64,000 nucleotides of DNA from the NCBI GenBank assembly GCA_027604705.1, contig JADHYV010000013.1, forward strand, positions 124,001-188,000, read 5' to 3'. Under the pieces are notes generated by a model that was not told where the DNA came from, did not search any database, and saw only the letters and a program-made list of their open reading frames with translations. Positions 1-13,335 of this stretch are shown here, in pieces. The DNA is from Allomyces arbusculus. Its lineage: Eukaryota; Blastocladiomycota; Blastocladiomycetes; Blastocladiales; Blastocladiaceae. Position 1 is the stretch's first letter; each line of letters begins with the position of its first letter. The position numbers were made by a program, and so were the translations under genes.

Positions 1-1
1 G

Positions 2-1092
2 GCACCGAACGCGTCCAAGGCGCGGGAACTGCGCGTGGAGTTGGTTGATCCCGGACACCACCGCGCGCCCATGTCGCTGTTGTCCGTGGTCAAGTCGATG
101 GAGCTCATGTGGAAGCCGTGGAACCGGTCCCGGCTCGCGCTTGTCATCTCGTTCTTTATTGTCGACGTACTGGCAATTCTGTGGGCTGGGATGGCGTGCA
201 CGGCATAGAAACTGATTTTCCCGATCGATAGATGGGAATCGCGGGCCAAGGCGCGCTCTTTGTGCCATACACGTACCGCCGGTACGGGTGGACGTCCAAG
301 GAGGACGGCCTGTTCCAGTCGGTCGCATTCTTTGCCAAGGTTCTGGTCATGATCGCATTCCTGCCGATGGCACATAAGGGCAAGGACCGGTGGCGGCCGC
401 AGACGCAGCCGCAACAGCAGGAGCACGTGCGGTCGACCGATCCCGAATTGGGCGAGTCGGAAACGACGCCGCTCTTGGCTTCTTCAAGCGACCGCGCATC
501 ATCATCAGCCTCGGCGTGGCGGTGGTCGCGGCCGTGGAAGGCGTGGACGGCGCGGTACCCGATGGAGGCGAGGCTTGCGCAAATCGGTCTTCTGTCATTC
601 ATCATCACGTATGTGCTCTTTGGCGCGGCGACAGTGGGGTGGTTGTATGCCTTTGGTGCGCTATTTTTTCTCCACCTCTTTCCTTCTCTTCAATCAGTCG
701 CTGACAGTTCGTCCCCTCTCTTCTCAGCGAGCACCGTCGACGCAATCGGCATCTTGAGCCTGCCCGCGATGCGGTCCCTGCTAACGCAAACCGTGCCTGC
801 GTCGCTGGTCGGGACCGTGCTCGCGACCATCTCGGTCACGCGGTCGCTGGCGTTCATTTTGGCGCCCATCCTGTTCAACGCCGTCTACGCGGCGACTGTC
901 GGCGTCGCTGACGGCGCCGTCTACTACATGGGCGCGGGTCTCTGGACGACCGCACTCGCTCTGGCGCTCGCCGTGCAACGCAGGGACCTGGTCCCGCGCG
1001 GACGCGACGTGGTTGCTGATTCGGCGAGCATGGCCGCGGAAATCGAGGCCGAGAATATGATTGAGGAGGCTGCGCCGAATGTGGCGCACTAG
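2..1092 (+). CDS. MFS transporter, copy A (5' end outside the window)
   Basis: This is the C-terminal half of a 12-helix major facilitator closely related to copy B (2182-4503). Exons are <2..166, 232..655 and 728..1092, with joins in the same places and phases as copy B. The ATG at 232 is not a start: it is the first codon after a TAG acceptor, equivalent to an internal exon of copy B. Conserved parts are the VPYTYRRYGWTSKEDG loop, helices in FQSVAFFAKVLVMIAFLP, and the C-terminal ENMIEE tail. The 72-nt intron at 656-727 keeps frame and has no stop, so unspliced RNA would add 24 residues. Nothing seen is broken, but the first half of the gene cannot be judged. The family resembles the tetracycline-resistance/HIAT1/SLC46-like branch of MFS; the substrate is unknown. 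Confidence 0.8.
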
Positions 1093-1469
1093 GGTTGGGG
1101 TGGCCGTGTCGTGTGGTTGGTGTGGCCGTGGATTGCTTTGCGCGCCATTGAAGTCATTGTGCGCGCTGTATATCGTTTTTGCTTTGGTTTGGTCAGTTTG
1201 TGTTGCTATGATTTCGTTGCGGTCGGACGTGCTGGACGCGCTCCTGCAGCGACTGCATTAAATCACGTTTTGCTTTTCTTCTTCATCGCAGCCTTGTCCA
1301 CTGCGCGTATTACTTCCTGTGGTGGGGTAGGAGGCTGGCCGAGAAATTAACGATTGCTGTTGTGAATCCAGACTGGACCAGCGTCAGCTGTTAGCTGTTG
1401 CGCGCGAGTGGTCTGGCATCTCGAGCTAATCAGAACATGATCGTCGTCGCCCCCAGCTCTCCACCACCG
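1093..1469. other. Intergenic spacer, array unit 1
   Basis: Holds the 3' flank of transporter copy A and the upstream flank of the first VMA12 relic. It is similar in pieces to the spacers after copies B and C (the TTTTGCT pyrimidine-rich stretch near 1268). No convincing coding sequence or RNA gene is seen. Confidence 0.5.
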
Positions 1470-2022
1470 TACTGCCACCAATCGTGTATTTCCAGTGGAT
1501 GCCCACTATCCGCGACTTGCTGCACGCCGTATACGCCTGGCCGGACAAACGTCACGCCGCGTCCCTCGACAATGGTCACGACCCACTCACCTACCAATGC
1601 AATGACCTCCGTGCAAGGCCTCGGGCGAGGAGCATTGCTCCACGCCATGACGCGCGCGCATCGGGTCCCCCGTCACCGCTGGCGACAGGAAATTTGCGCA
1701 ACAAATTTCCAAATTCCCAAGTTTCCTCGTGCTGTCGCGTCGCGTCCTTCCAGTTACCGGCGCTCCAACACATCCTCGACGACATTCGCCACGACCAACA
1801 CCGGAAAGAGCACGAGCTCATCGCGTCGGCCATGGTTCGCACCGACACGCAGATCGATGTTGGGCCCTGGCCCTGTGCAGAGCCAAGATCGTCCTTTGCG
1901 CCTTGTCCTCCGGAGCCAATCAATTGTGATTGACAGTAGTTTCAAGTTGCCTGCAGCTGAACGCCGTCATTCACCCGCTCGATCCTCGGCGTGACGGCTG
2001 GCTTGCCTTATGTGATGGATGC
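1470..2022 (+). pseudogene. VMA12/TMEM199-like relic 1
   Basis: Collinear with the intact VMA12 gene at 4804-5541. Recognisable pieces are IRDLLHAVYA (about 1508-1537), the LDN segment near 1565, LPALQHILDDIRHDQHRKEH (about 1756-1815, matching SPALQRILDDIRRDQERKEY of the intact copy), and a final-exon trace near 1978-2020 (CTCGATCCTCGGCG then CTGGCTTGC). Internal deletions and frame changes lie between them: the alanine/leucine-rich middle of exon 1 is largely lost, and the first membrane helix after RKEH is replaced by unrelated sequence. No open frame joins the blocks. It is a host gene duplicate that decayed while the unit 2 copy stayed intact. Confidence 0.75.
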
Positions 2023-2181
2023 TCTGCTTCTGTTCTGCCCTACCTTCCACACACCCGGACGGCCTGGCTCGTGCAACTTCTTATGTCGACATCTATCACG
2101 CCACTCGACGATATTGCAACACGCTCTCGCTCCCTCTCCCGCCAGGCCGATTAGTTCGCACGCTCTGATCAAGGACGCACC

Positions 2182-4503
2182 ATGGACGCCGAAGCCGACG
2201 CGACCAGCAGCAGTAGCGTGTCCAGCAGCTCAGCGGCAATCTCGTCGCTCACGGAGGCCCACGTCAACAGTCCGCACAAGCGCGATTTATCGAGCGCATC
2301 AGCAACGTTGGCCACAGCTGTCTCTGCCGACGCGCCGCTTGCCGGGACTAGACGCAAGCCGTCGATGAACGAGGAGGATACCCGGCCTTTCCGGCCTTTG
2401 CTTCATGACGCTGCTGACGAACTCGCTTCGCCACCGACCAATGATCCTGCTGTCGCGTCCCGCACCGTCCCGGTCGACAATTCGCGCCGCGTCTACGTGT
2501 CCATGTCGATCGTCTTCACGATTGCCGTGGCCTTTTCCATGATCACGGCGCCGCAACAACAGTTTGTGCTCAGGCTCGTGTGTCGCGAAGCGACCGCATC
2601 GTTGGGAATGCACGGTGGAAAACTGGTAATGCCGGGTGCTGGGACGCTCGTGGTGAGTGCAGTCAAGCACGGCAGCACGATTGATCCAATTTGTCAACGA
2701 CCAGACGGTGCGTGTCTTAACGGGTTTATGAACTGGTGGTTTCGGTTCATTGATGTGGTTCCACTGACTGCCAACGATGCGTCACTCTATTGGTAGTGCA
2801 GCGCGTGATAGTCGCGACCACGACTATGCTCTCGCTCGTGCTCGCCATTCCAGCCATGTTCGCAACGTCCTTGTACGGACAGCTATCGGATAACCCACGG
2901 ATTGGTGCGTCGTTAGCGCAGGCTTCGAAGCAACCTATTGGCTCACTCCTGCGTGCTCCATGTGCAGGTCGCCGCCCATTCCTGCTTCTCCCCGTGTTTG
3001 GGTATATTTTCTTCCTCAGCAGCATCTTTGTCGTCGACCGCTTGCAGCTGTCAAGCTGGTTCTTGATCCCCGGTAATTTGGTTCTCGGACTTGCCGGCGA
3101 ACTTTCCACTCTGCTCATGGGTACGCTGTTTAGTTTGTGACCTGTGGTGCCTTGGAATTTCGATTGATACGCGCTCTCTTCATTGCAGCACTGTTTGCAA
3201 TGATGACCGACTTGATCCCGACGCCGAACCGCACCTTCTTTTTCGTGATCATTGAGCTGACCATGATGATTGGGATGATGATTGGGCCGCTGCTCATGTC
3301 GGCAGCCGTCTCATATGCGCCCGAGAGTCCGCTGTTGCCGATCGGCACGGGTATTGCGCTCATGGCGCTCGCATTCGTGCTTATCCTGATCATGGTCCCG
3401 GGCGCATCCAAAGCGCAGGAGCTGCGCGCCGAGACGGTCGATCCTGGCCACCGCGCGCCCATGTCGCTGTGGTCGGTCGTCAAGTCGATGGAGCTCATAT
3501 GGAAGCCGTGGAGCCGATCGCGGCTTGCGCTTGTCGTTGCGTTGTTTATTGCTGACGTACGTGACATATTGCCGATGGGTCTGGACGTGCGTGCACGACA
3601 CTGATCAGCACCTTTTACTGCCAATGAATCAGCTGTGTAGCGCGGGTCAAAGCACCATGCTCGTGCCCTACACGTACCGCCGGTTCGGGTGGACGTCCAA
3701 GGAGGACGGCCTGTTCCAGTCGGTCGCGTTCTTTGCCAAGGTTCTGGTCATGATCGCATTCCTGCCGTTTGCACACAAGGGCAAGGACCGGTGGCGCTCG
3801 ACTTCGCCGTTGGAGCAGCAACCGCGGTCGAGTGATCCCGAGTCGAGCGGGTCGGAAACGACGCCGCTCTTGGCCTCGTCAAACGACCGTGCGGCGCCGT
3901 TGGCATCGACGTGGTGGTGGTCGCAGGCGTGGGCCGCGTGGACAGCGCGGTACCCGATGGAAGCGTGGCTCGGGCAAACCGGTCTCCTGTCGAATGCCAT
4001 CACGTATGTGCTCTATGGCGCAGCGACTGTCGGGTGGTTGTATGCTACGGGTATGCTCTTTGCGCTCTTCTTCGTGTGCCCTACCATCGGCGACTGTTGC
4101 CCAGACGCTAACGCGGTTCATGGCTTTACTATCCCCAGCGAGTACCGTCGACGCCATCGGCATCTTGAGCATGCCCGCCATGCGGTCACTCCTCACGCAA
4201 ACCGTGCCCGCGTCCCTTGTTGGCACCATCCTTGCGACCGTCTCCGTCATGCGGTCGCTCGCATTCATCCTCGCGCCCATTTTGTTCAATGCCGTCTATG
4301 CGGCGACGGTGGGCGTCGCCGATGGCGCCGTCTACTTCATGGCCGCGGGTCTCTGGACGATTACGCTCGCTTTGGCGCTTGCCGTGCAGCGCAAGGATCT
4401 GGTCCCACGCGGACCCTATGCAGTGCCGGACTCGGCGAGCGTGGTCGCGGAAATCGAAGCCGAGAATATGATCGAGGAGGTCGCGCCGAATGCGCCGCAC
4501 TAG
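2182..4503 (+). CDS. MFS transporter, copy B (intact)
   Basis: Six exons: 2182..2707, 2797..2904, 2968..3120, 3189..3556, 3633..4050, 4139..4503, giving 645 aa; every junction keeps phase. The ATG at 2182 has a good context (CACCATGG). An acidic, serine-rich N-terminal tail of about 110 residues precedes the first helix (VYVSMSIVFTIAVAFSMI). The loop 2-3 signature GQLSDNPRIGRRPFLLLP is the classic MFS G-x-LSD-x-GRRP motif and marks helices 2 and 3. DLIPTPNRTFFFVIIE follows in the helix 4-5 region. A long charged loop (about residues 430-480) lies between the two halves, as in the tetracycline-resistance/HIAT1/SLC46-like group. Membrane location, probably vacuolar or plasma membrane, is inferred; the substrate is unknown. 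It lies directly upstream of intact VMA12 and is flanked by copies A and C. Confidence 0.88.
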
Positions 4504-4803
4504 GGAGGGTGGACGCGGTGCGCAGCAGGCGCGGACGTGAATAGTTTCGTGCGGTTTCGGAATTCTGGTGCGCAACGTCTCCGTTTTGTGCTTGCGGGGA
4601 TTGGTTTGGTTTGCTTCGGTTGCATTTGGCCTTGCTGCGCGCGCTCATGCGGCGGCCGCGGCATTTTCGTTTTGCTCTTCATCATCTGCGCACCCTTGTC
4701 CACTGTGTGTCTTTATTTATGGGGTCCTGGGTAATAATATGCTGGAGCAGGCATGACACATCAACGTAAGCGGACCAGCATCGTCCCTCCCGGCTTCATC
4801 ACC

Positions 4804-5541
4804 ATGACCACGGCACCACCGCCAATTGTGCATCTCCAGGCAACACCCGCGACTCGCGACTTGCTGCACGCTGTCTACGCCAGCCCGGCCGCACAAGCGT
4901 CGGGTCTTGCCGGAGAGATCGCCGCGTACCTCGACAATGACCGTGTCCCGCTTGCCCTTTTGCACCGGTGCCACGAGCACGGCATCCAATGCCTCGGGCG
5001 CGACAAGTCGCTCTTCGCTTTGACGCGCGGCACCCGCGTGGCCCTCCCGCCACCACTGACGTCGACGGGCAAGGTGCGCCCATTTCTCACGTTCGTGACT
5101 CGGGAAAAAATTGTGGTGACGCGTCAAAATATGTCGCGTAGTCGCCCGCACTGCAGCGCATCCTCGACGACATTCGCCGCGACCAAGAACGTAAAGAGTA
5201 CGAACGCATGGCTGGGCATACGTTACCCGGTTCGCGCGAGGACAGTGACGCGCCCGTGATCCCGCGCGCGACACGGCGCACGTTTCTCGCCATTACCAAT
5301 GTCTTCTACACGGCCGTGTCCGTGTTTGTCGCCGTGTATTACATTGGCGCGACAGTCGCGGATGATATTGCATGGGTACGTCTGGAAATGCCGTGCTGGA
5401 GGATCATGGCTGAATGTAACTAATGCTTCTTGCCGTGCCATCACTTAGCAAGTCTTGGTCGCGTTCTTGCTCGCCATGCTCGTCCTCGGCGGCGAGGCCT
5501 GGCTTGCATACCGCAGCGGCGATCAACGGAAAATGACATGA
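4804..5541 (+). CDS. VMA12: V-ATPase assembly factor, Vma12/TMEM199 family
   Basis: Exons 4804..5073, 5142..5375 and 5449..5541 give 198 aa; both introns (68 and 73 nt) are phase 0 and the second has a TAACTAAT branch region. The protein has an N-terminal cytosolic domain (TRDLLHAVYASP...), the family motif SPALQRILDDIRRDQERKEY (residues 91-110), and two C-terminal membrane helices: FLAITNVFYTAVSVFVAVYY (138-157) and VLVAFLLAMLVLGGEAWLAY (170-189). This layout of helical pre-membrane segment, TNV, hairpin and acidic residue in the last helix is typical of Vma12p/TMEM199, the ER factors that help assemble the V0 sector of the vacuolar H+-ATPase. An in-frame ATG at 4753 could add 17 residues; 4804 is preferred for its ACCATGA context. 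Degenerate copies lie at 1470-2022 and 9270-9720, so this is probably the only working copy here. Confidence 0.8.
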
Positions 5542-5739
5542 TACTGGACAAAGTCTCTTTTGGTCTTGCTGATGCTCTCGAACTAGAGAAGCGGACCCGC
5601 GGCGAGCAAGGAATTGAATTAGCGGCATGAAGACAGCGATGACAGCATTTTCCCTGCGGCTGAAAAATCTGTCATTCCCACCCATCGTGACTGTGTTGTT
5701 TTTCGAGTTTTCCGTAGGATGACTATTGAAATGCCCACC

Positions 5740-5930
5740 CTGTTCCGCACCGTCGCACCTTCGACCCCCGCCAGTCCCGGCGGCAGCGACGACTCTGCTG
5801 GCAGCGCACCACTCCCGCCCGCCACCTCGTCACACTTGACTTTGCTCGGGTCCGGTCAGAAACGGACGTCTCGTCGACAGATACTCATCCTGCCTGGCAA
5901 GAACGGCCACGTCGGTGTGCGCATTTAACG
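5740..5930 (-). pseudogene. Fossil of the ADA3 3' end
   Basis: On the minus strand this stretch reads AGGSGALPAESSLPPGLAG, which aligns with the C-terminal AGGGVLPAAASLGPVPPLQV... of ADA3 at 9894-10020. At DNA level blocks such as CTGCTGGCAGC, CCCGCC and TTGAC(T/A)TT match in order. The copy is shortened and diverged, has no attached N-terminal part, and stops being recognisable upstream of about 5930. Its order and orientation relative to VMA12 are the same as for the true ADA3 and the third VMA12 relic, so it marks the right edge of an ancestral duplication unit. Confidence 0.65.
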
Positions 5931-6707
5931 GAGGGGGCACGCACACCGCCATAAAGTAAACCGAGCGGGCGATCCACGCAGTCGGTCGTTGACGGTGCTC
6001 CTAGAGGGCGAGGCGAAGCGGAAATGTGCTGCATTTGGGCAGTTGCTCAATTGTTGATTGGCGTGAGTGCCTCACGTGGATATCCCGCGGCCGGTGCGGG
6101 ACGCGCGAGACGCAACTCACGAACGATACCTCGGCGCTGCCGCCACTGCACCACTCTGGCACCTCGGGAGCCTAGTCGAACCGGCGTGCGCAGATGCTTG
6201 GCTGAGTCTGGTTTGCTTCCTACACACTACAACCTTGCTATCTTCTCAAAATCGACGTTGGGTTCGGTTGGTTTCTATTTCTTCCTCTTGATCAGTAAAG
6301 ATCACACTTCTGACGGGCCATCTCTTGTGCGTGGCCCACTTCGATGAGCCCATTTGTGCTCTTCCCTCCCTGTCGTTACCTGCCTAACATACTTGCCTTG
6401 CCGCGCGGGATGTTTCAACTTCCATTTGACTTCCATTCGATGATGGCACGCCTCCCAAGGACCAGGCGGTCTGGTTTGTTCCGCTGTTCCATGCCAACAT
6501 GTTGCCTGCAGCATGGATGATCGGCGGTTGTCGATTTAAGCATCGGAGGATCCCCCCGAAGCACTTCTTCGGTCTGCAGGGACTGCACCAAGCTCTTCGC
6601 GCACACCGATCAACGACACAGCATGCACGACGCGATCACCAGTCACGAAGAACAATGGCGGCAGCGCGGCGTCAAGTACATCGCCAACGGCGATCCACGA
6701 CGATGAT
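5931..6707. other. Non-coding stretch before transporter copy C
   Basis: About 780 bases with no convincing gene. Short open frames here have no family resemblance and no consistent splice pattern. Expected contents are the duplication breakpoint and the old promoter of the third transporter copy. Confidence 0.4.
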
Positions 6708-8895
6708 ATGCAAAATCACGAGAGTTCGAGCGCGTCGACCGGGTCGGTCACAGTAGTCTCTTCTGACGTTCCGCTTGGCGCGACCAGCAAGAATTCGAAC
6801 GTGCTTCGTGATGCGGCCGACGTACATTCGTTGCCGCCCGGTGGCGGCGCTGCTGCTCTCTCACCCGCCAGGCCCAAGAACGCACGCCACGTCTAATTTT
6901 TCATGTCGATCTCTTTACGGTTTCTATGGCGCTCATGATGATCAATGCGCCACAGCGCCAGTTTATACTCCGAATTGTGTGTCGCGAAACGGTCGTCATT
7001 GGGACTGCACAAGTTTGCGCAGGGTGTGGCCAAGCACAGCAGCGCGATTAATCCAGTCTGTCAAAAGCCGGATGGTTCGTCTCGATGGACTTTCGCTGGT
7101 TCCATCCTTCTGGTGTAATGTGACTGACTGACGACAAACCATCACTGTAACACGCACGAAAAAGTGCAGCGCGCGATGCTTCAACTACAACCATTCTCAC
7201 GCTCATGCACGCCATCCCGGCCATGTTTGCTACTTCGTTCTACGGGCAGCTGTCTGATAACCCGCGGATTGGTTCGTCGCTATCTACAGCTGATCATGGT
7301 GTCATTTCGTGCCTCTTGTCTCACTCGTGTGCCCCACTTAGGTCGGCGCCCATTCCTAGTGCTTCCCGCGCTCGGGTATATTTCCTGCCTCAGCAACATT
7401 TACATCGTCGATGGTTTCAACCAGTCGAGCTGGTACTTGATCCCTGGCAACTTGCTTCTCGGCCTTTCGGGCGAACTGTCCACTTTCCTCATGGGTAAGT
7501 ACGCTGAATATGTGGACCGCACGTCATTTGACACTATCTGACACGTAACTGCACCACTCCAGCTATTTTTGCAATGACGGCCGACCTCATCCCGACGCCG
7601 AACCGTATCTTCTTTTTTGTGATCACGGAAATGACATTTATGACGGGGATGAAGGTTGGACCGTTGATCATGTCGGCGATGGTTGCGCGCGCACCTGACA
7701 TGCCGCTGTTGCCAATTGGCGTTGGCATCGGGCTCATGGCTTTCGCGATCGTGTTCACTCTCATCTTCGCCCCGAGCGCGTCCAAGGCACAGGAGCTCCA
7801 CGCCGAGGGCGGCGATCACGGCCAGCAGTGCGTGCGCATGTCGCTGTGGTCGGCCATCAAGGCCATGAAGCTCATGTGGAAACCGTGAACCGGTCGCGGT
7901 TCGCCATCGTCATTTCATTCTTTATCTCTGACGTATGTGGTCTCGCCAATTTTTTGGGCCGCATGGGCTGAACGATTTCTCAGTCTCATTGTGCCTTTGA
8001 TGTGCCTTCGTTGTGCCCTCTAGTTGTGCACTTCGGCCCAAGCGACACTTCTTGTGCCCTATGCGTACCGCCGGTTCGGGTGGACGTCCAAGGAGGACGG
8101 ATATTACCAGGCAGCCGCGTTCTTTGCCAAAGTGCTCGTCATGATCGCGTTTTTGCCCTTCGCGCACAAGGCCAAGAACCGGTGGCGGTCGCAGTCGCAG
8201 GAGCAGTCACAGCCGCAGGAGCAGCAGCCACTGCAGTCGAATGGTGACCCCGAGTCCGGCGAGTCGGAAACGACACCGGTTGGCCACTTCGAGTGATCCT
8301 GCAACGTCGTCGGACTCGACACGAGGTTGGTTGCGGCCATGGACGGCACGGTACTTAATGGAGGCGTTGGTCGCTCAAGTCGGCTTCTTCTCGTTTGTCG
8401 TCGCGTATGCCCTCTCTGGTGTGGCGGAAGTCGGGTGGTTGTATATCTTGGGTACGATCTTCGCCCTCCACCTCGCTCTTCCTTGCTTGATCACCTGCAA
8501 ACAGCCGTCGCTGACGAATCTCACGGTTTTTTAATGGTCACCAGCAAGCACTATCGACGCCGTTGGCTCTTTGAGTACGCCCTCGATCCGGTCGCTGCTC
8601 ACGCAAACCGTGTCCGCGCCCTTGATTGGGACTGTGCTGGCCACCATCTCCGTCATGCATTCTCTGGCGTACTTTTTGGCCCCCTGTCGTGTTCAACGCC
8701 GTCTACGCGGCGACCGTGGGCGCTGTTGACGGCGCAGCCTTCTACATGGGCGCAGCCTTGTGGGCAATCGCGCTCGCCCTGTCGCTCGCCGTGGAGCGCA
8801 AGGACCTGGCCGTGCACGGACCTGACGCGGTGGTGGCAAAGTTCGAAACCGAAAAGTCGATGCAGGACGAGGTGGCGCTGAACGAGGTGCAATAG
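6708..8895 (+). pseudogene. MFS transporter, copy C (decayed)
   Basis: Collinear with copy B through all six exons: remnants at about 6708-7071, 7165-7273, 7342-7494, 7563-7932, 8020-8452 and 8546-8895. Some parts are very well kept, such as GRRPFLVLPALGYI, ADLIPTPNRIFFFVITEM and RRFGWTSKEDG. At least five lesions break it: exon 1 shifts frame around 6890-6930; exon 2 has diverged out of frame near 7180-7210; a one-base loss near 7886 turns the KPW-NR join into KP-stop; a two-base loss near 8280 shifts frame before the central loop and gives a stop; and a shift near 8685 breaks APxxFNAVYAATVG. Most introns keep GT..AG ends. Decay looks recent compared with the VMA12 relics. Confidence 0.8.
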
Positions 8896-9269
8896 AGTGG
8901 AGGTGGCCCACGCTTGACACGCGGGCGGGTTGCTTTACGTTGTGCCCAGGATTTTGATGCGCGCTTGACCTGTCTTTTGTTTGTTAAAATTGTTTTCGGG
9001 CTGTATTGGTTTGCTTTTTTGGTAAACATGTCGGGTGTGCTCTCACGGCAACTGCCACAACTCCGTTTTGCTCTTCATCATTCTCGTAGCCTTGTACACC
9101 GTATTTTGTTTATCTCCTGCCCAGAGCCCAATACAAAATGTCATGTCGCTGATGCATGCCTCTGAATTGGTGTGTCGTGGGTCGAGTGCAGGCTTCTGTG
9201 CAAAGACAAACATTTGTCACAAAGTGACCGAGTCTTCGTTGCCCTCACCTCCAACCGTGCTCACAACAA
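8896..9269. other. Intergenic spacer, array unit 3
   Basis: Related in pieces to the spacers after copies A and B (TTTTGCTCTTCATCATT near 9068, CCTTGTACAC near 9090). No gene is seen. Confidence 0.45.
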
Positions 9270-9720
9270 TCAATCATGTACATCCCGAAATGAGATGCTG
9301 CGCCAATCACTGCGTCCCACTACTCCTCGTGCGTCGGTACCACAAGCACGGTACGGTGATGCCTCGGCCGGGGAAATCACTTTGCGCGAGAGCGCATAGG
9401 CTCCCCACCTGTCATCACCGACCCCTACCAGGCCAATTCTGTCCGCAGCAAACATCCACGAGGTTGAACGTTGTCTCTGCCGCGTCGCGTGGCGTCCGTT
9501 CCGTACCGTTGGCCGCGCTGCATTGCTTCCTTAGTGATCGACTTCGCGCGGCCAAGTGCGGAAAGCGGATCCACACACGGCCATTCCGTGCCCCGGTCAA
9601 ATTAAAATAACTGATGTTTCTTGGCGTGTCGTTCGCATGGCTTGATCGCGCTCCTGTCACTTGCGATGGTATGCCGGCCTGGCGCGCAGACCGTCGTGGT
9701 CACCAGTGAAAATGTGTAGT
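9270..9720 (+). pseudogene. VMA12/TMEM199-like relic 2
   Basis: DNA-level matches to intact VMA12 occur in the right order. CGGTACCACAAGCACGG (about 9333-9349) corresponds to the CHEHG region, followed by CCTCGGCCGGGGAAATCACT. GCCGCGCTGCAT (about 9510) corresponds to the start of exon 2 (CCCGCACTGCAG). The stretch GATCGCGCTCC ... GGTATGCCGGCCTGGC (about 9646-9680) corresponds to the last exon. None of these blocks shares an open frame and the first helix is lost. It is the most decayed of the three VMA12 copies. Confidence 0.6.
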
Positions 9721-9893
9721 TTTGAGTTGATTTAACTAAATGTTGCTGATGATTTCGGTCTTCTCTCGAGTTTGAGTGAAAAAAGACGACCACGATCAGC
9801 ATCCTGGAGGGACCCGGTCCCCCGCCCACCGCAAACTGTCCTGTCTTTCGGGAAAAAAAATATTGACACGCCCGCGCCGACCCCCCACCGCCT

Positions 9894-12406
9894 TCACCCG
9901 ACTTTCCCCGCCGGTCCTGGCGGCGGCACCTGCAACGGCGGCACCGGTCCCAACGACGCGGCTGCTGGCAGCACACCCCCACCCGCCGCTCCCGCCGCCC
10001 CGGTCTCGTCCAGCTTGACATTCCCCGGAATCCCGTCATAAATCGAGCTCCTTGGAATCCGCCACGACTCCTCGTCATGGCCCGCAAACACGGCACCCGC
10101 ATGCGCAATCAAATCGCGGCGTTTCTGCATCAACAAGCCAATCTGGTCCGGGAACGGTTCCGTCGTCGGCCCTTGCGGCGGGGGTGGCTCGGAATCCGCG
10201 CGGCCGGTCCGTTTCTCGTGGTTCTTGACGCCCGCGGTCCCATCGGCAATCGCGGCGGCCGCTGCGGCGGACGCCTTTTTCTTGGACTTTTTGGCCGCCG
10301 GCTTCGCACAGTATCGCGCAATAAATGCCTTTTCCAACTGCTTGTCAATGTCGTCGAGGAGCGCCAGGTACTCCTGGTACGCGAGTCGCATGCGCGCCAT
10401 GTGCGCGAGCCGCGCGCGGCGCGCGGTGTTGATAGCCAGCTGGTCCCGTAAGAGAGATTGCACGGAACGGAGGGATTCGGCGACGGGGTCGTCGTCTTCG
10501 CCGGCGGTCGCGGCGTCCTAGATGACAACGAGAGCATGTATTGGTTCGACGATGCGGAAAGGAGAAAGAGAGGGAAGGGACAGAATGGACGCACCTCTCC
10601 GTCAAGTAGCCCGAGCGCGCGCAATTCGCCACGCAATCGGTCATCGAGCGCCTCCACGTCGGCCGGTGAGAGTGTCGCGACCGACGCCGGATCGACCCAT
10701 GGGCTTGCTACCACGCCGTCGAGCACCGTGCCTTTCGCCGCTGCAACTACTGGCGCCCCACCCGCTTCCGCCATCACCGCGTCCCCGTCCGCACCCACCG
10801 GCTCGCCGCTTTCGTCCCAGTCATCCTCAGACGGCGGGTCGTCCGGGTCCGGCAACAAGCACGCGAGCAGGCGCTGGTGCAGCGGGACGACCTGTGCGCG
10901 TGCAGCATGCGGGTCGGTGACGCGCGTATGCGCGCGGTCAAACACGACATCCAGTGCCGGGTGCGCGTACGGCGGTAAGCCGATTGCAGGGGTCGCGGGG
11001 TCGAGCGGGGACGTACTGGTCCCGACCTGCGGCAAGTGCGGTTTCCCGAGTTTTGGCACGAGAAAGTACCGCGCGAGATCCGTCGGAACAGCCGAGGTGC
11101 CAATCGTCGGGACTGCTGCAGCAGGCGCAGCGGCAGCTGCGGCAGTGGTACCAGGCGCGGGCGAATTTCGGCCAGGCATCGGGGACGGTGCGACGGCGGC
11201 AGCTGCCGCAGCTGCCGCTGCCGCGACGGCACCGGGCGTCGTGGATGCCGAGACAGACGCGTTCTGCTTGGTTAGGAACGCGAGATCGTCTTCGGTCACG
11301 GGCCGTAGCCAGGCGTCAATGTAGCTGTAGAACGTGGGCAACGCCGTTTGCTGTTTGTCGTTGACCTTGACTTTCGAGTAGTCGTCCCCCTGCAACGTCT
11401 CGGTCGCCGGCATTTTCGCAACCGCGTCTTCGCCGAGGAAATTGCGGTAGTAGTACGGCCGGTCGACATACTGCACGACGGTCATCCCCGGGGGCGCCGG
11501 TGGCGGTGGCGGGATCGCGGGCGCGGCGGGAGGCGCGGGAGACGCGCCCGGTTGCGGCGACGCAGAGGATGCAGTGGCGGGTGGTGGTGGCGCCGCTGAC
11601 GTGGAACGGCGCGATCCAGAAGACGACGCGGTCCCGCGGCGCTCGAGTTTGCGCTTACGGTGTGGGTCGACGGGGAGCGCGGGCGCACCGTTGGTGGGCG
11701 GGAGCGAGGAATGCGCGAGAGGATGCCCCGGCGGAATTGGCATGGCGAGCGGCAGCGGCGACGACGCGGTGCGCGTGTCCTCGACCTTGATCTTGATCCT
11801 CGGTGGTGGCGGGACGTCGTCAAGCGCACCAATCGACCGTTTGCGCCTTGCCGCGTCCACGAGCCCTGGTTCCGATTTGATGTCGACCGAGGACGCGGGT
11901 GAGGCTGGTTCCACGGATCGTGACGGCCGGGACCGGTCGGTCTTAGCCCCTGCGGCCGCGACGGCGCCCGGGACAGCAACATTCGTCCACGAATTGCTGC
12001 TGGTCAAATCAATCGGTCCCGTGGGCGGCGTCGACGGCGTGCGCTCGGCCAGCATTCCAGGGGCCGTGACGGGTGTTGCGGGCGGGCGTGCATTTGCTGC
12101 TCGTCGTGCCGTGCTGATCCACTGCTCGATCGCGGCAATTTCGCGCTCGAGGTCGAGTGATCGTGCTGCGGCGGTGCGTGCCAGGCCTTGCAGCTCGTCG
12201 CGCAACGTGCTGAGCTCAGCCGCGTCCGGGACGGGCACGGGGTTCAGCGCTGCGTCGGCGGTGGTCGCCATGTGCACCTGGAATGCATACGCGATGGGCG
12301 TGCTTGGGTGCAGCAGCGACGAGGCCGGCGGCGGTGGGGGCGGTGGCGGCGGGTGCTGTGATGGGCCCGTGACGAGCGCGCCGGGCGCGTAGGGCGGTGG
12401 TGGCAT
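9894..12406 (-). CDS. ADA3: SAGA/ADA transcriptional coactivator subunit Ada3 (Ngg1)
   Basis: Two exons (12406..10595 and 10517..9894) separated by a 77-nt intron give 811 aa. The hallmark of the Ada3 C-terminal domain is clear: PYYYRNFLGEDAV, then GDDYSKVKVNDKQQ, FYSYIDAWLRPVTEDDLAFL and ARYFLVPKLGKPH. These correspond to the conserved DYSKVK...T..YLRP.TEDDL..L...Y.IP.LG signature. The C-terminal exon is helical (RLAYQEYLALLDDIDKQLEK). Ada3 links Ada2-Gcn5 acetyltransferase to the SAGA and ADA complexes in the nucleus. The N-terminal half is long and Pro/Ala/Ser-rich with homopolymer alanine and proline runs, larger than in yeast Ngg1. The ATG at 12406 (MPPPPYAPG) was chosen as the first in-frame ATG downstream of a frame that otherwise extends without support; the ATG at 12271 (MATTADAALN) is the alternative. 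Confidence 0.88.
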
Positions 12407-13335
12407 CGCGATCGCGGTGGTGGTGAGGGGCCGTGGTGGTCGTGGGGAGGAGGACGGATCGAGTGTTGGACTGGTCGTGTGCGGGGTCGCACGGTGATCA
12501 CGCGCGGTGCGCCGCGTGCCGCGTGGGGGTTGAGCCGGACGTGGCCCGTGCGTGCGAAGCGAGAAGCGAGGTGCGGGACAGACGGGCGAGGCGGTCGGCA
12601 GCCCCACCACCACAGCGTCAGGCCGCTCGACACTTTTGCGGGCGCCGTGCTCGCGCTGCGCTGGTCCAATCCACGCCGTCGCTGGCCGTGTCGCGGGGGT
12701 GTCGTGCACAGTGTCGAGTGCGGCAAGTTGCGTTGGGCCGCGACGGCGCGATCACAGCGGAAGCGCGCGCGAAATTCGGTGGTGTCCTGAAGGGGAACCG
12801 TCGCAGAGTCTGCTCAGAAAGCGACAAAAGCGCGAGGCACACCGTCTCGTCACACCCGCCACGTGCAAATTGTGCCACCCGCCGATGGGCCTGGCATGCA
12901 GGGCGCGGTCAGCCCTCCTCCACGTCACACCGAAAATCACTTGGATCTCTGGGCGTTTCCAACGGCTGCGAACCACTGCTCTCGGCCGCGCCCACCAACG
13001 CCGCCCCCACGCGCATTTCGACCCCACCCCGCGTAAATCTCGACCAACCCAAGAGATCGACATGGAACGCATGCCCGCCAATGCTCGCCGTCGTTCAACG
13101 CGCGCTCGTGCAATTTCACGTCCGCGCGGCGCGTCTCTCGCTCCAACGCCTTCAACTTTGGCCCTCCAATCGTGAACGACGCTCTCTCCACGACAATTCG
13201 CGTCAACTCATCACTCTCTGGCTCGTCTGTGCTCGACACCTGCCGCTCGTTGTCTCGACCATCGCACAACGCGTCTCGCGTCACTACCTGGCCCGGCCTG
13301 CTCCATCACGTACTCGCGATATTTATTGCTTGGAA
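12407..13335. promoter_or_regulatory. Divergent intergenic region ADA3 / orphan 13336
   Basis: This 929-base region between two divergent starts should hold both promoters. Plus-strand frames are open through much of it only because G/C-rich DNA has few stops. An upstream in-frame ATG near 13081 could extend the plus-strand gene. No defined element is recognised. Confidence 0.4.

Follow-up and report, generated by a model that had tools for sequence, protein, structure and literature searches.

When two neighbouring genes are duplicated together, do their copies share one fate? The question is raised by a 64,000-nucleotide stretch of the Allomyces arbusculus genome (GenBank assembly GCA_027604705.1, contig JADHYV010000013.1, here C13; positions 124001-188000), which we call the window. 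Coordinates are those of the window unless prefixed by C13, and negative numbers lie upstream of it. Within positions 1-9720 are three linked units, A, B and C, each running from a transporter gene through a 3' flank into VMA12. VMA12 is a factor that helps to assemble the V-ATPase, the cell's acid pump; its animal counterpart is TMEM199. We put at roughly 85% the probability that this array arose by at least three successive tandem duplications at the DNA level, followed by decay of VMA12 in units A and C, a late death of transporter C and conversion of short tracts between transporters A and B.

Three intact transporters and one working VMA12

The genes that carry this reading are the following.

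C13:119918-122270 (window -4082 to -1730), plus strand: transporter D, intact six-exon frame, 639 amino acids; the most divergent copy
C13:122799-125092 (window -1201 to 1092), plus strand: transporter A, intact six-exon SLC46/PCFT-like major facilitator superfamily (MFS) gene, 644 amino acids, with genome matches; in the window, the remainder of exon 4 (1-166), then exons 232-655 and 728-1092
1414-2080, plus strand: VMA12 relic of unit A; local match significant over 1414-1824, beyond which, as far as about 2080, the end of exon 2 and exon 3 align poorly and were positioned with the help of the multiple alignment
2182-4503, plus strand: transporter B, intact, 645 amino acids; exons 2182-2707, 2797-2904, 2968-3120, 3189-3556, 3633-4050 and 4139-4503
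4753-5541, plus strand: surviving VMA12 (unit B), 215 amino acids; exons 4753-5073, 5142-5375 and 5449-5541
6623-8895, plus strand: transporter C, pseudogene with the six-exon layout still recognisable; start set at the aligned ATG
9301-9656, plus strand: VMA12 relic of unit C; local match significant over 9301-9597, and a weak match (E 0.27) at 9608-9656 over the end of intron 2 and the start of exon 3

Transporters D, A and B each have a spliced six-exon frame free of internal stops, with GT..AG introns; A and B differ at about 20% of their coding sequence. Transporter C carries one nonsense codon and seven frameshifts and is by these disabling lesions a pseudogene. The lesion count leaves out a gap at the start codon that is not a multiple of three, judged an edge effect of the alignment, and nine in-frame gaps. 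The original prediction had allowed for at least one and perhaps two good transporters and a third with a handful of lesions. A and B are indeed both intact and C is lesioned; what that prediction missed is transporter D, intact and directly upstream of the window, where a search for further units had been suggested. The array is therefore larger than three units.

By profile and by closest solved relative, the transporter is an SLC46/PCFT-like MFS protein. Both B and D, which were scanned at full length, match Pfam MFS_1 (E 1e-16 and 2.6e-15, respectively), and for both the sole solved relative with a significant match is 7bc6, the proton-coupled folate transporter (PCFT; E 3.5e-15 and 3e-15). 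The GRRP motif, the GDY and the subsequent acidic D and E align in transporter D; the Allomyces transporter differs in its long N-terminal tail and Q-rich loop. Passages of one paper state that fungi synthesise folate and tie plasma-membrane folate transport to OPT proteins (PMC12687453). Because fungi make folate (PMC12687453), the resemblance to PCFT would carry no implication that folate is the substrate.

The spliced 215-residue VMA12 model matches PF11712 with E 1.6e-15 (57.7 bits against a gathering threshold of 25.5, profile positions 2-125 of 137). Its frame is also open with other splice choices, and an alternative start at 4804 would give 198 residues. By eye, two hydrophobic stretches lie near the C terminus. 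The protein has no notable difference from its family; what sets the gene apart is its two linked relics. A profile search of the genome (25.9 Mb, 197 contigs) returned this gene as its single PF11712 match.

Both relics stand well clear of their controls, which were dinucleotide shuffles and 604 other segments of the same stretch of C13. The unit A relic aligns to the survivor with a Smith-Waterman score of 106 (shuffle maximum 19.5, reached in 0 of 200; segment maximum 23.5, 0 of 604) and the unit C relic with a score of 38 (shuffle maximum 20, 0 of 200; segment maximum 23.5, 0 of 604). The relics also match each other above all 200 shuffles. Across the 648 exonic positions of VMA12, relic A is gapped at 84 and identical at 342, and relic C is gapped at 187 and identical at 240 of the remaining 461. 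Relic A preserves the distance that separates its matches to exon 1 and exon 2 (about 95 bp as against about 110 bp), and copying was therefore at the DNA level. With in-register repeats, spaced about 3.4 and 4.4 kb apart, spanning all three units, the three-unit array of transporter and VMA12 is real, as is the proposal of one working VMA12 and two relics.

Contiguous units with a common flank

Read along the plus strand, the locus holds transporter D, transporter A, a VMA12 relic, transporter B, VMA12, a decayed tail of ADA3 (histone acetyltransferase subunit 3), the broken transporter C and a second VMA12 relic; ADA3 itself follows on the minus strand. Units A, B and C are contiguous, share order and strand, and have homologous flanks between their genes, as expected of tandem block duplication. 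The homology of A and B forms one alignment from the transporter start through the 3' flank (-1198..1311 against 2191..4713), and the 3' flanks of A and C match with a score of 33.5, reached in 0 of 200 shuffles. A shared stretch between transporter and VMA12 is what the original prediction needed of its flanks.

Fifteen pairs of segments were compared in all, each against 200 shuffles. Eight scored above every shuffle: the two comparisons of a relic with VMA12, the one between the relics, both overlapping cuts of the ADA3 tail, the 3' flanks of A and C, and the upstream flank of C with the D-A spacer in two overlapping comparisons. The last of these is a weak resemblance (score 19, with shuffle maxima of 18 and 17.5 and a genomic maximum of 16 among 604 segments):

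6391-6483, plus strand: flank upstream of unit C, similar to the one that precedes transporter A (window -1578 to -1483)

The other seven pairs did not exceed their shuffles. D or the D-A spacer takes part in six of them; in the seventh, the upstream flank of C (6001-6600) was set against the final part of the A-B spacer, and 57 of 200 shuffles reached the score. The 3' flank of D gave no signal against that of B (31 of 200), and the upstream flank of D was unmatched to its counterparts in A (185 of 200), in B (36 of 200) and in C (299 of 604 genomic controls). No VMA12 trace was found beside transporter D: the D-A spacer scored 13.5, reached by 88 of 200 shuffles, and for the sequence upstream of D the figure was 190 of 200.

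Self-comparison of 28 kb upstream plus 14 kb of the window revealed no further units, and outside the array only two pairs of repeats of about 90 bp. Genome queries with exon 4 of B and with an open frame of A (exons 5 and 6 plus the intron that separates them) matched this locus only, among the best candidates that such a search scores, so that copy counts from them are lower bounds.

Order and age of the duplications

A codon model of the four transporters (586 of 666 alignment columns) favours the split (D,C),(A,B) over its alternatives by 8.9 and 13.6 log-likelihood units, and the tree (D,(C,(A,B))) is clear on these alignments. Synonymous divergence (dS, by the NG86 method, with 95% bootstrap intervals) follows the same order: 0.55 [0.47-0.64] for A-B, 0.77 [0.64-0.94] for B-C, 0.77 for A-C and 0.99-1.05 for D against the other copies. 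For the alignable VMA12 core, dS is 0.71 [0.41-1.06] for A-B over 101 codons and 0.93 [0.51-1.64] for B-C over 70 codons. These wide intervals include the transporter values, and the VMA12 distances agree in direction with the transporter branching order, on too few codons. The linked genes are thus compatible in divergence (A-B 0.55 versus 0.71; B-C 0.77 versus 0.93) rather than very different. Joint duplication of both genes, twice, had been proposed; the homologous 3' flanks and compatible dS bear this out, and the account was incomplete in that the transporter underwent three or more duplications.

We suggest the following history, in which the exact breakpoints and the direction of each duplication are what we infer. 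A transporter-only copy, D, would have split off first, or else the VMA12 adjacent to D was wholly lost. A block of transporter, VMA12 and ADA3 tail would then have been duplicated: one copy became unit C, next to intact ADA3, and the other an A/B ancestor followed by a truncated ADA3 tail. The transporter and VMA12 of that ancestor may have been duplicated again to yield units A and B. Redundant VMA12 would have decayed in A and C, leaving the unit B copy; three transporters would have been kept under purifying selection while the fourth, C, died late; and short tracts would have passed between A and B by gene conversion.

In the textbook model of duplication and loss, a block is duplicated in tandem and one of its linked genes then loses function. 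The array resembles it in its contiguous multi-gene units, common flanks and compatible divergence, and in that one gene has a single surviving copy and the other several. It differs in that the surviving VMA12 is probably in the derived middle unit, marked by the decayed tail of a neighbouring gene.

Unequal fates of the linked genes

Transporter C probably died late. Its sequence is still alignable to B over 604 codons, and a model with two ratios of nonsynonymous to synonymous substitution (omega) gives 0.34 for the C branch and 0.20 for the remaining branches (twice the log-likelihood difference, 2ΔlnL, 6.8 over a single omega). An omega of 1 on the C branch is rejected (2ΔlnL 24.3). Under this codon model, transporter C is constrained over most of its branch; by our own arithmetic, about one sixth of the branch would be neutral if omega is 1 for neutral and 0.20 for working sequence.

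The VMA12 of the same unit is far more decayed than its transporter, as the gap and identity counts above attest, which supports an earlier loss of VMA12. In unit A the contrast is between a decayed VMA12 and an intact transporter. Unequal fates within one duplicated block, as originally proposed, are therefore borne out. Omega for the alignable VMA12 cores is 0.56 in the relics and 0.28 in the survivor, values that are not separable (2ΔlnL 1.1).

Probable exchange between transporters A and B

One stretch shared by A and B is identical over 80 bp:

3111-3190, plus strand: identical tract over intron 3 (3121-3188), equal to transporter A at window -282 to -203

It comprises 10 nucleotides of exon 3, the 68 of intron 3 and 2 of exon 4, and is longer than expected by chance (maximum 55 in permuted alignments; 0 of 2,000 reached 80). 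Intron 3 is identical at 68 of 68 positions, as against 116 of 200 for introns 2, 4 and 5 together and 73 of 86 for intron 1. Across three tracts, A-B dS is 0.27, compared with 0.64 outside them, while B-C (0.75) and A-C (0.79) remain at their usual level. Low dS between A and B with unchanged dS to C speaks for sequence passing between the two genes rather than for constraint. Two of the tracts are weakly supported when four-fold sites are taken by themselves (p 0.029 and 0.031, without correction). Gene conversion appears, on this evidence, to have homogenised A and B in patches. The longest shared runs of D-B, D-C and A-C were reached in 39, 17 and 9 of 2,000 permutations, respectively.

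A repeated intron element was considered as the source of intron 3 and rejected, as its tract has two matches in the genome, those in A and B.

An ADA3 footprint and the probable original site

The array abuts ADA3, and a piece of ADA3 lies inside it.

5677-5928, minus strand: decayed copy of the ADA3 tail (3' end and 3' flank), lying just past the surviving VMA12 and aligning with 9821-10112
9894-12751, minus strand: ADA3, 3' end facing the array; frame 9894-10517 matches PF10198 (E 4.1e-19)

The tail relic scores 42, reached in 0 of 200 shuffles in each of the two cuts; of the 604 genomic segments none came near it, the best scoring 24.5. Most simply, the copied block would have had its end within ADA3, which puts unit C at the old site and the VMA12 survivor in the copied unit. 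Adjoining intact ADA3, unit C thus probably occupies the original position, with the working VMA12 as a copy; the weak upstream match of C to A fits C as the old site. The remainder of the ADA3 gene (frame 10130-12751) has no Pfam match and is joined to 9894-10517 by position and reading only.

Weighing the alternatives

Several observations weigh against the history proposed above. For the VMA12 core, A-C dS is 1.26 over 61 codons, with an unusable interval since the estimator saturated in some resamples, and all VMA12 estimates use 61-101 codons picked for alignability. The upstream flanks of A and B are unmatched (D-A spacer against A-B spacer, 67 of 200 shuffles). When the ADA3-tail relic was searched as DNA against the whole genome, it returned itself alone; its match to ADA3 is too weak to show up except in a local comparison, and rests on local alignment with controls. 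The three exchange tracts were picked by eye after viewing the A-B identity profile; the column-permutation test ignores uneven conservation and is hence lenient, and runs in B-C (37 bp) and D-A (26 bp) also beat all 2,000 permutations. A Fisher test on the introns omitted intron 1 (73/86), and the intron 3 tract ends near the intron borders, something not expected of plain gene conversion. Freeing omega on every branch gives 0.20 for D, 0.31 for C, 0.15 for A, 0.23 for B and 0.36 for the internal branch (a gain of 1.45 log-likelihood units for three more parameters); as the internal branch is as high as C, any relaxation special to C is modest. Finally, an omega of 1 for the VMA12 relics is marginally rejected (2ΔlnL 4.5, alignable cores), and the relics may thus have worked for part of their life.

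Could the transporter and VMA12 have been copied independently, for example by later VMA12 insertions? Unit D, a transporter without detectable VMA12, would fit, but A, B and C share order, strand and the flanks between the two genes, relic A keeps its exon spacing and dS is compatible; because the flanks match, we regard separate copying as very improbable. A different proposal, made in the original prediction, accepts the block and holds that surplus VMA12 was harmful and actively removed, surplus transporter being useful. It would account for the single VMA12 match in the genome and for a VMA12 decayed far beyond the transporter in the same unit C; VMA21 and V-ATPase subunit a, each single-locus in the searches made, fit dosage balance without testing it. 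Yet neutral loss of redundant copies predicts the same picture, the relic cores are still recognisable and were never deleted, and relic omega is inseparable from that of the survivor. Selection against extra dosage is not supported as it was stated, and we think it unlikely; loss of redundant copies, by a decay that would be neutral, suffices for the VMA12 pattern.

The identity of intron 3 in A and B might instead reflect a conserved functional element, since the identical tract nearly coincides with the intron. The third introns of C and D share just 31 of 67 and 31 of 68 aligned positions with it, however; positions 1-13000 of the window gave no Rfam match at the gathering threshold; and two exon tracts are likewise close in A-B alone. 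We hold such an element to be doubtful. A bolder combination is improbable too: that a single-copy housekeeping gene moved by one unit through duplication and loss, leaving the neighbour's tail as a footprint, and that the intron-sized tract was also transferred by an intron-limited, perhaps RNA-templated, route rather than by ordinary gene conversion. Successive block duplications, loss of redundant VMA12 and ordinary conversion between A and B remain the reading we prefer.

Such an outcome is ordinary for gene duplication and unusually easy to read at this array, which opens no new principle. With linked genes of the same age, the pace at which redundant copies die comes with an internal control, and the ADA3 tail shows which unit probably holds the original site, making this a small, clean case of gene displacement by duplication and loss.

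Other features

Upstream of the array is an AFG1-like ATPase gene on the minus strand (2659-3813 of locus L010, a numbering in which transporter D occupies 5418-7770). This gene, ADA3, VMA12 and the short GT..AG introns are in keeping with a fungal genome. A tRNA scan of the window in its bacterial setting found no tRNA genes. Elsewhere in the genome are two rhodopsin matches, C7:515350-516708 and C15:369892-371226, each followed by guanylate-cyclase matches on the same strand, and these are probably rhodopsin-cyclase fusion genes. A rhodopsin adjoining a guanylate cyclase is a typical feature in Blastocladiomycota. For one of the two rhodopsin matches, the nearest solved sequence is remote and labelled a phosphodiesterase (E 5.9e-20).

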